A stretch of 64,000 bases of DNA from Bacteroidota bacterium (GTDB lineage: Bacteria > Bacteroidota > Bacteroidia > B-17B0 > Aurantibacillaceae), in the NCBI GenBank assembly GCA_018267655.1, contig JAFDYB010000080.1:1-64000 (forward strand). The letters run 5' to 3'. The notes under the pieces were generated by a model that saw only the letters and a program-made list of their open reading frames with translations, made no database searches and had not been told where the DNA came from. Shown in pieces: positions 1-12,451 of this stretch; within the stretch, counting starts at the first letter, position 1; each line of letters begins with the position of its first letter. The position numbers and the translations under genes are program-made.

Positions 1-104
1 ATACGGGTAAAACTATCAAAACCGTAAAAACTGCCAATGTCTTTTGCAAGTAACTTAATTTGCAAAGCATAAAATGCTTTGTTTAAGTTGATCTGAAAGA
101 ACGT
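1..104. repeat. structured repeat unit A (truncated by window edge)
   Basis: Bases 1-104 are identical to 187-290. The unit holds the inner hairpin TACGG (2-6) with CCGTA (22-26), the right outer arm CTGCCAATGTCTTTTGCAAG (31-50), and a second hairpin made of AACTTAA (52-58) and CAAAGCA (63-69), a TAAAA loop, then TGCTTTG (75-81) and TTAAGTT (83-89). The left outer arm lies outside the window, so the array probably continues to the left. No open reading frame explains the conservation. Confidence 0.85.
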
Positions 105-160
105 GTCTTTTCATGGGGTTGCCACATTAGTATCTTATCATTACAAAAAATCAAAAAAAC

Positions 161-290
161 CTTACAAAGACCTTGGCAGAAAAAAAATACGGGTAAAACT
201 ATCAAAACCGTAAAAACTGCCAATGTCTTTTGCAAGTAACTTAATTTGCAAAGCATAAAATGCTTTGTTTAAGTTGATCTGAAAGAACGT
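161..290. repeat. structured repeat unit B (nested inverted repeat plus hairpin)
   Basis: This is a complete copy. The outer arms CTTACAAAGACCTTGGCAG (161-179) and CTGCCAATGTCTTTTGCAAG (217-236) are reverse complements apart from one bulge and about two mismatches. They enclose an inner stem, TACGG (188-192) with CCGTA (208-212), around the loop ACTATCAAAAC (198-208, partly in the stem). The second hairpin is at 238-275. Bases 187-290 repeat 1-104 exactly at a 186-base offset. Whether it acts as RNA or as a DNA element cannot be told from sequence alone. Confidence 0.85.
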
Positions 291-333
291 ATTTTTTATT
301 TAGGGATGTTATAAAATATTTTAGCTGAATTGT

Positions 334-412
334 CTTACAAAAGCTTCGGCAGAAAAAAATCTACAGAAAAAAACTATCAAAACTGTAAAAAAACTGCCGA
401 AGCTATTGTAAG
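334..412. repeat. structured repeat unit C (diverged, covarying)
   Basis: This diverged copy has outer arms CTTACAAAAGCTTCGGCAG (334-352) and CTGCCGAAGCTATTGTAAG (394-412), pairing at 18 of 19 positions. The inner stem is TACAG (362-366) with CTGTA (383-387), against TACGG/CCGTA in units A and B. One base pair has therefore changed on both sides, while the loop ACTATCAAAAC (373-383) is kept. The second hairpin of A and B is missing. Two other small palindromes follow: GAGGT/ACCTC (420-440) and TCACATTC/GAATGTGA (446-462). Confidence 0.8.
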
Positions 413-493
413 TACCCTTGAGGTAAAAATTGCGCACCTCTAATTTCACATTCAGAATGTGACTAAATGGGAACTAAACAGCCTGAAAAAAAT

Positions 494-835
494 CTAAATT
501 TTAAAACAACAAACAGCAAGATGAATATCTGTTTGCTTTTTGGGGATGCTAGTTATTAACCTAGCGGCAGAATGAAATGATAAATAGGTGAAATTTAAAT
601 TCGAAAGAAATGGTACTTCACAATCTGTGGTTGTAAGATCTTTTTTCAAACTTTTTTCTTTTTCCAAAGAAATAATAAAGTTTCTCATTATTTGAGTCTT
701 TCCTTTGGTATAAACCTTTACAGATGTTTGTTTTTGAAATAGATTTTGCCCGCCAATTGCTAAACCGGCTGCAAAAGAGAAAAGTAGTGGTAATAGCACT
801 AAAAAACGAAATATATTTTTTCTCTTATTCATCAA
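494..835 (-). CDS. small secreted or membrane hypothetical protein
   Basis: This open frame of 113 residues has an N-terminal basic stretch followed by a hydrophobic segment (about residues 10-30), consistent with a signal peptide or single membrane anchor. I do not recognise a family. It is divergent from the M28 peptidase gene. A TAAATTTG element on the minus strand (848-841) lies just upstream, matching the Bacteroidota -7 pattern TAnnTTTG, which modestly supports expression. Against it, the C-terminal part runs over a hairpin-like stretch (about 505-535) and no conserved motif is visible. It could be a spurious frame. Confidence 0.35.
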   Translation of the reverse strand: MMNKRKNIFRFLVLLPLLFSFAAGLAIGGQNLFQKQTSVKVYTKGKTQIMRNFIISLEKEKSLKKDLTTTDCEVPFLSNLNFTYLSFHSAARLITSIPKKQTDIHLAVCCFKI

Positions 836-945
836 CGATTCAAATTTATGCTAATATTTCTTACAATAAAAAATTTAACAAAATAAATTTAATTTTTTTA
901 ACTAAAAGTCAGAAAAAACTTAGTTTTATTACTTTTGCAAGCATT

Positions 946-10154: not shown

Positions 10155-11566
10155 TAAAACCTAAAATAAATAAAAGGGTTAAAATTAAGGGCGCTAATAT
10201 AACTGAGCGAAATGTAGTAAAGTACAATACTACTCATTAATAAAAGCCAACGGCTATTTTTTGTAAAAACAGGAGCGTACAATTTATCTTGCAATTGTTT
10301 ATTTTTTGAAAATACAGCAAAAAACGAAATTATACTTGCTAAAATAAGCATTGTATAAAAATCATTATTTACCGTAAACTTTGCTGAAAAAAAATGAAAC
10401 GAAAACATCTGCTTTATCACTCCAAACGCCAATTTTAAATCTTCACACCTAAACAACACCCAGCCGGCAACCGTAATAATAAATGTAAAAAATATTGAAA
10501 CTACTCTTCCAACTTTTGCAAGAAGATTTCCTAAAAATAAACGTTCTAATACTAAAAATAATCCGTGCCACGCACCCCATAAAACAAAATTCCAGCTAGC
10601 CCCATGCCATAAACCACTTAATAAAAAAACAATAATTAAATTTCTGTAAAGTTTTATATTCCCTTTTTTATTTCCGCCCAATGGTATGTATAAATAATTT
10701 TTCATCCAAGAACCCAAGGTAATATGCCAGCGTCTCCAAAACTCAGTAATGCTTGCTGAAATGTAGGGGTTATTAAAATTTTCCGGAAGTTTAAATCCCA
10801 TTATTTTACCTAAGCCAATAGCCATATCACTGTATCCACTAAAATCAAAATAAATTTGAAATGTGTATGCTAACGCACCTACCCATGCAGTTGCAGTATC
10901 AATTTGAGAGATATTTAAAGAAAATACTGCATCTGCTTGCATACCTAAAGTGTTTGCTATGATGGCTTTTTTTGCAAGACCCAAACAAAAAATAACAAAT
11001 CCATTTAATTTAAAATCAGTATTATAATTTTTTTCGCGACTTGTAATTTGAGAGGCTATATCATGGTAACGAACAATTGGACCTGCTATCAACTTAGGAA
11101 ATAACAAAATATACGTTTGATAATTCCAAACATTTTTTAAGGGCGGATGTATGCCCCGATAAACATCAACAATATAGGTTACGCTTTCAAATGTGTAAAA
11201 CGAAATACCCACCGGCAAAATAATTTTTGCCAAATGTGTTTCAATGCCAAAGGCGCTTGCAAAAGTTTCTATAAAAAAATTACTGTATTTAAAATAAAAC
11301 AGCAAACCTAAATTCATTACAAGCGACACAACAAGAAATGTAATTTTTTTAGCTTTTTCTTTTTGTGCGTGCATTGCTTTTACTAAAAAGAAATCAAGGA
11401 AAGTGGTTCCAAGAATGACAAAAATAAATTTTGGGCCGCCCCAACTATAAAAGTATATACTAAACAACAGTATTATCGCATTTTTAAAACGATTAGGTAC
11501 AATGTGATACGCCAATAAAAATATAGGCAAAAAATAAACTAAAAATGTAATACTGCTAAAAACCAT
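10154..11566 (-). CDS. MBOAT family O-acyltransferase, AlgI-like
   Basis: Polytopic inner-membrane protein of 470 residues in the MBOAT/AlgI family, which moves acyl groups across the membrane for modification of cell-surface polymers. Family marks are visible: FYTFESVTYIVDVYRG, FPKLIAGPIVRY, NFNNPYISASITEFWRRWHITLG and GLWHGASWNFVLWG, the last carrying the catalytic His. It is the upstream gene of a two-gene unit with the AlgJ-like protein. A gap of about 150 bases separates it from the divergent outer-membrane protein gene. Confidence 0.95.
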   Translation of the reverse strand: MVFSSITFLVYFLPIFLLAYHIVPNRFKNAIILLFSIYFYSWGGPKFIFVILGTTFLDFFLVKAMHAQKEKAKKITFLVVSLVMNLGLLFYFKYSNFFIETFASAFGIETHLAKIILPVGISFYTFESVTYIVDVYRGIHPPLKNVWNYQTYILLFPKLIAGPIVRYHDIASQITSREKNYNTDFKLNGFVIFCLGLAKKAIIANTLGMQADAVFSLNISQIDTATAWVGALAYTFQIYFDFSGYSDMAIGLGKIMGFKLPENFNNPYISASITEFWRRWHITLGSWMKNYLYIPLGGNKKGNIKLYRNLIIVFLLSGLWHGASWNFVLWGAWHGLFLVLERLFLGNLLAKVGRVVSIFFTFIITVAGWVLFRCEDLKLAFGVIKQMFSFHFFSAKFTVNNDFYTMLILASIISFFAVFSKNKQLQDKLYAPVFTKNSRWLLLMSSIVLYYISLSYISALNFNPFIYFRF

Positions 11567-11713
11567 GTTAAAAGGCTCTGCAAAAATAAAATTTTTGTTG
11601 AAAATAGTGTCTTAATTGCACATCTAAAAAAATCATTAACAATATTACTTTAGTATCTTTTCAAATAGCTAAGCATTTATTTTTTAAATTTATACTCTTA
11701 GTATTTTAAAATC

Positions 11714-12451
11714 ATGATGCGATTAATCATCTCTATATTATTCTGTTTACTAATTACTTGTGCAAATGCCCAATTTAATAAGTTTTTTAGAGGCTTTGGA
11801 ATTTTTGGTGCTTTAACTGAATCGTGCCATTATTATCGAAATTTAGATGCAAGTAAAAAAGACCCTTTAATTTATAATCCTACTTATTATTACCCTCAAA
11901 ACCATATTTCAGCAGAGCATTTTAGTTGGGCTGCGGGCATTTTTGCCGAATTTTTTAGACACGATCATATTCGCTGGCAAACCGAATTAGAGTATGCAAA
12001 CAAAGGGGCTAGTGAAATGCCAATAATAAACCCATATTTAGGCACACGCTCCGGTTCCTTTACTAACAACACTTATACGTACATACAATGGAATAATTAT
12101 TTAAAATTTTTTGGCCCCTTTGGGCTACCAAATAATATTTATTTAATGCCGGGCATTAAGTTAGAATATCTCTTTCAACAAAGCACTCCTGTTTTTGCTC
12201 CATACAGCTCTAATTTTGCAAAATTTTGGGCTAGCGGCGATGTGGGTATAGGGTATGAATTTCCACTGTTTAAACGTATTTCCGGTTTTGTTGAATATCA
12301 TTGGAACAATGATGTATTGCCTCACTCACCCTTAAACGATGTAAAAATAAGAAACCGCACTTTTGAATATCGCTTTGGTTTAATTTATCGCCCAAGAAAA
12401 AGATATATTGATGATTGTAATGCCCCTCGCTATAATGGTCCTGCCTATTAA
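11714..12451 (+). CDS. outer-membrane beta-barrel family protein
   Basis: 245 residues with a signal peptide ending at NAQ (about residue 20). Alternating aromatic/polar strands follow (HFSWAAGIFAEFF, YTYIQWNNYLKFF, ISGFVEYHWNND, FEYRFGLIYRPRK), typical of small Bacteroidota outer-membrane barrels. No specific function can be assigned. The stop is 18 bases before the alanine dehydrogenase start, so the two may be co-transcribed. Confidence 0.7.
   Translation: MMRLIISILFCLLITCANAQFNKFFRGFGIFGALTESCHYYRNLDASKKDPLIYNPTYYYPQNHISAEHFSWAAGIFAEFFRHDHIRWQTELEYANKGASEMPIINPYLGTRSGSFTNNTYTYIQWNNYLKFFGPFGLPNNIYLMPGIKLEYLFQQSTPVFAPYSSNFAKFWASGDVGIGYEFPLFKRISGFVEYHWNNDVLPHSPLNDVKIRNRTFEYRFGLIYRPRKRYIDDCNAPRYNGPAY

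Follow-up and report, generated by a model that had tools for sequence, protein, structure and literature searches.

A tandem array of nested hairpins next to an integron cassette in a Bacteroidota genome, possibly a structured non-coding RNA element

Introduction

ToxI-like type III antitoxins are tandem arrays of structured repeats, in which a repeat of about 36 nt forms a pseudoknot and the partner is an endoribonuclease toxin. The array described here likewise has structured repeats in tandem, next to a gene for a possible toxin, but its unit is 186 bp long and forms a hairpin, there is no endoribonuclease toxin, and the pairing with the neighboring Fic gene is not conserved. With integron attC sites the array shares imperfect hairpins, conserved ends and a position beside an integron cassette, but it lacks the RYYYAAC/GTTRRRY core and the unpaired central spacer, and its loop is conserved besides its base. 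REP/BIME and MITE-type elements (ERIC, NEMIS) are likewise short palindromic non-coding repeats, whereas here there is one tandem array without target-site duplication, with a variable stem and a fixed loop. Sponge RNAs of the CsrB type also present one loop motif on repeated hairpins; that motif is GGA, in contrast to ACUAUCAAAA (or UUUUGAUAGUUUU) in the array, which has no known partner and much larger units. In Bacteroides, FopS comprises 14 paralogous small RNAs of about 65-70 nt that are built of a single-stranded 5' seed and a terminator hairpin, and according to the paper the structure was deposited in Rfam (PMC11697453). The array resembles these multicopy Bacteroidota small RNAs with a shared exposed sequence (PMC11697453), but it is a tandem, nested hairpin with no terminator and no Rfam match.

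Array layout

The window (the whole stretch of 64,000 nt that was analyzed) starts with the first base of contig C80 of an uncultured Bacteroidota genome, and this contig start falls inside a tandem array with a spacing of about 186 bp. Self-comparison of the window showed that positions 1-104 are 100% identical to 187-290 and that 1-111 and 187-297 are 98% identical at a spacing of 186, which bears out the repeat of 104 bases that an earlier note had read from the sequence. That note also described three units, each with an outer inverted repeat. The tandem hairpin units stand, but the array has at least five of them: A (5'-truncated), B and the diverged C on C80, and D and E at the very start of contig C93 (Table 1). 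In this genome, the hairpin repeat was found on these two contigs only. Unit A is incomplete: C80 starts within its inner stem, so its 5' outer arm is missing, and the window shows the complete outer inverted repeat in B and C only. Since both contigs terminate within one array, they most likely join there, and the most likely order is ORF71 side, D, E, an uncertain number of units, A, B, C and the rest of the window. The spacer between A and B has the same sequence as that between D and E except that an A-run differs in length by one base, and D and E are distinguished from A and B by a T to C difference in the 3' outer arm. This near-identity indicates that A, B, D and E are recent duplicates, C being an old and diverged member.

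Table 1. Positions of the array and of the features around it (window positions are those of C80)
Feature	Position	Strand	Remarks
Unit A hairpin 1, 5'-truncated	1-50		Inner stem, loop, 3' outer arm; 5' outer arm missing
Unit A hairpin 2 (AACTTAA..TTAAGTT)	51-90		Identical to 237-276
Unit A tail and spacer A-B	91-160		Spacer also between D and E on C93
Unit B hairpin 1	161-236		Outer arms 161-179, 217-236; inner stem 188-192, 208-212; loop 193-207
Unit B hairpin 2	237-276		z -4.5
Unit B tail	277-297		Final stretch common to A and D
Spacer B-C	298-333		Unrelated to spacer A-B
Unit C diverged hairpin 1	334-412		Outer arms 334-352, 394-412; TACAG/CTGTA; loop ACTATCAAAAC
Region 3' of unit C	413-470		Two small, weak hairpins without homology to hairpin 2; z -1.8
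113-aa ORF	494-835	-	Reads towards the array
Promoter match of 113-aa ORF	~841-870		Bacteroidota type, 9/10
Units D and E	C93:1-303	reverse	First bases of C93
ORF71-Fic cassette	C93:314-1402		L005
ORF71	C93:335-550		71 aa; start ~30 nt past unit D
Fic	C93:586-1383
attC-like site after cassette	~L005:1390-1490		CCATAACGGG..GCTGTTAGCA
Tyrosine recombinase	C93:23758-24891		377 aa; L040:11758-12891
Relative F	G002:C60:58520-58602	reverse	Sister species

Hairpin architecture and stem changes

Hairpin 1 of each unit is a nested structure of 76-79 nt, in which an outer stem of about 19 pairs with A-rich internal loops encloses an inner stem of five pairs, whose loop contains AAAACUAUCAAAA. It is far more stable than dinucleotide shuffles, with z values of -5.5 for B and -9.9 for C, and none of 200 shuffles was equally stable. 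The second hairpin that had been noticed in A and B is real as well. Unit C has diverged and keeps the architecture, namely the outer arms, the inner stem and the loop. Comparison of B with C shows two-sided changes at outer pairs 9, 10 and 14 and at a single inner pair, where TACGG/CCGTA becomes TACAG/CTGTA by a switch from G-C to A-U; the paired changes pointed out in the earlier note hold for both stems.

Relative F and distribution

A covariance model built from B, D and C (R1) was used to search 40 genomes of the genus and found one relative, F (E 4.5e-5), in a sister species. The search for other copies that had been proposed thus only just escaped an empty result, with exactly one relative outside the genome. 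F keeps the CTTAC..GTAAG-TA ends and the AAAACTATCAAA loop, carries further two-sided stem changes, including outer pair 15, as well as extra stem pairs, and its hairpin 1 is also far above shuffles in stability, like those of B and C. A second model to which F was added (R2) scores F at E 3e-7, a gain that arises by construction because F helped to build the model.

In alignment A5, which consists of four distinct rows (those of C and F being shortened or padded in the A-rich stretches and in the outer stem), two-sided changes are seen in 6 of the 24 pairs, pairing holds in 90.5% of the cells, and none of 500 shuffles reached the covariation score of 0.236. Shuffled and slid controls both fell well below the real alignment in two-sided pairs, pairing fraction and covariation score. 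Stem covariation of the kind expected of structured RNA therefore lies above the controls, on four distinct rows of which two were edited and on three independent lineages only (B/D, C and F). We conclude that the orphan structured repeat is real and statistically strong. A small peptide was considered as well; indels disrupt the reading frame ..KTIKTVK.. of B and C, and F has a stop in it, which makes coding unlikely.

B, C and F share one and the same 12-base loop, AAAACTATCAAA, while their arms have diverged, and all three keep a bulge or mismatch at a similar position of the outer stem. These features bear on a neutral origin, in which the hairpin was duplicated by slippage and its arms were matched by template-switch correction, not by function. 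The recent duplication of A, B, D and E and the sporadic presence across the genomes searched would agree with such an origin, and quasi-palindrome correction could yield paired changes without selection. However, the loop is unchanged despite the divergence of the arms, and correction would have erased the bulge or mismatch; we therefore consider a purely neutral repeat rather unlikely.

No further member was found among 87 genomes of the family with R1 or in 395 genomes of the class with R2 and a loop-pattern scan. The class-wide pattern matches were all without long complementary arms, and among the loop-pattern loci listed, loop and long complementary arms occur together only in the array and F. 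Searches of phages, plasmids and viral contigs, the last also by loop pattern, gave no hairpin relative, a longer loop pattern had zero matches across the genome contig collection, and a looser loop scan of the same collection gave no further hairpins among the matches listed. Weak covariance or BLAST matches elsewhere (L008-L016, L022-L028 and L281-L283) turned out on inspection to be without the loop or without the arms. Rfam 15 had no match over the 64 kb at the gathering threshold and only chance-level ones at E up to 5, in agreement with the first impression that no known family fits. The genus is deeply diverged, with M28 orthologues about 59% identical, so a fast-evolving RNA could easily escape such searches. 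The region upstream of the M28 gene lacks conserved synteny within the genus, and therefore no empty site could be read.

Strand and putative transcription

Both DNA strands fold, and the minus strand is 5-10 kcal/mol more stable in all four sequences compared (minus versus plus, B -25.4 versus -20.3, D -24.8 versus -15.3, C -33.0 versus -28.2 and F -30.5 versus -22.9 kcal/mol), a difference that comes partly from U-rich loops forming extra weak pairs. Plus-strand A.C oppositions become G.U pairs on the minus strand at outer pair 4 (A, B, D and E), at pair 10 (D and E) and at one pair of F, as would be expected if that strand were RNA; one wobble in F favors the plus strand. Because the minus strand folds better, transcription, if the element is an RNA, would probably run towards ORF71 and the integron cassette. 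No promoter above chance was found within the array, nor was an intrinsic terminator, and the window has no terminator-like site in positions 1-1000. The 113-aa ORF on the other side of the array (Table 1) had no family match above cut-off.

Comparison with known element families and the neighboring cassette

Dispersed REP or MITE elements were rejected as an identity: convincing copies are confined to the ends of C80 and C93, and as for a MITE target-site duplication, each unit and F are followed by TA but differ in the preceding bases (AC, GC, GT and GG). FopS membership was rejected on the nested-hairpin fold and the lack of a terminator-like site in 1-1000.

ORF71 and Fic together form an integron cassette. 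The same pair is found in G405, G355 and G373, which belong to other families, with 81-87% DNA identity, and is a conserved mobile unit. The cassette homology stops at C93:1398-1402, at the attC motif GCCCATAAC. In other genomes, attC ends of the GTTATGGGC type commonly stand in front of the cassette; in the present one, about 12 nt of the cassette start are missing, with the array edge in their place, and the junction is not a clean G|TT.

This position, the presence of attC-type sites in the genome, the folding of both DNA strands, and the conserved ends with a variable stem, which resemble recombinase hairpins, would suit a folded single-stranded DNA site for recombination or replication that a recombinase recognizes, attC-like in manner but of another kind. 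However, the base of hairpin 1 is CTTAC/GTAAG, without the AAC/GTT core. In hairpin 2, AAC/GTT is present, but pairing between the boxes AGATCAAC and GTTACTTG is essentially confined to it, the outer boxes being unpaired, and an unpaired central spacer is lacking; a crude attC scanner gave nothing useful. An attC identity was rejected on these core boxes. In the genome, no integron integrase passed the curated cut-off, the best match being a tyrosine recombinase that scores close to it but below (see the last section), and the cassette edge, as noted, is not a clean junction. We regard a recombinase site as unlikely.

The other proposal that starts from the cassette is a regulatory leader or type III-like RNA antitoxin of ORF71-Fic, read on the minus strand into ORF71. 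It would be consistent with the better-folding strand running into ORF71 only some 30 nt past unit D and with the conservation of ORF71-Fic as a mobile unit. However, the pair occurs in G405, G355, G373, G220 and G446 with no such hairpins upstream, and there is no Fic gene near F, on which grounds a type III antitoxin was rejected. Moreover, Fic is not known as a type III toxin, and the protein encoded here carries its own inhibitory motif, of class II type. This proposal is therefore improbable, and the adjacency of array and cassette is probably an accident of an insertion-prone site.

In G355:C473 (L296), the stretch just upstream of the cassette holds a short element of another kind, bounded by perfect terminal inverted repeats of 19 bp (TAGTGCCTCTTAGAAAACT), and its presence at the same cassette edge suggests an insertion-prone spot.

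Proposed nature of the element

We tentatively interpret the array as a structured non-coding RNA element that has been amplified in tandem. A paired stem that drifts while loop and ends stay fixed fits a single-stranded structure recognized at its loop, and RNA is its likelier form because the element does not pass as an attC site or a dispersed repeat and shows G.U-compatible changes. Of the two options left side by side by the earlier note, small RNAs or a recombination/repeat element, the first thus fits better in the form of a tandem structured RNA, and a dispersed transposon end, REP/MITE or attC is disfavored. The element would most likely be a small, fast-evolving, lineage-specific RNA that was recently amplified. 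The results on promoters and terminators speak against this reading, as do the flanks of the hairpin, which are not conserved between the units and F. Hairpin 1 would be its constrained part, with a long stem that must pair as its sequence drifts and that carries the inner stem and the fixed loop. On the minus strand, where it would most likely act, the loop sequence is UUUUGAUAGUUUU, flanked by U-rich internal loops, and a protein or a target RNA may make contact there. By analogy with multicopy small RNAs and protein-sponge RNAs, tandem copies may raise dose or valency. A more specific version, a new class of tandem-hairpin RNA with a fixed U-rich loop on covarying stems that sequesters an RNA-binding protein or neutralizes or controls ORF71-Fic, has in our judgment only a slim chance of being right.

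If transcribed, the array would represent a small, lineage-restricted family of structured RNAs in Bacteroidota, for which few RNA regulators and protein partners are known, and its tandem copies would be a convenient bait for the partner. Its present extent is one array and one relative.

Other integron-related features of the genome

A tyrosine recombinase is encoded on C93 (Table 1) and scores close to but below the cut-offs for XerA type (214 of 220 bits) and integron integrase (210 of 265); its best TIGR02249 (integron integrase) match covers C93:24070-24888, and a XerA-like family ranks first in NCBIfam, again both below cut-off. On another contig, several attC-type sites (TAACANGGGT..GTTAGC/GTTACC) flank small ORFs at C70:~10300-12300 (within L042, C70:3000-20000). 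These sites form an integron cassette array with no integrase identified, and a similar attC is present in G015:C2 near 41984.
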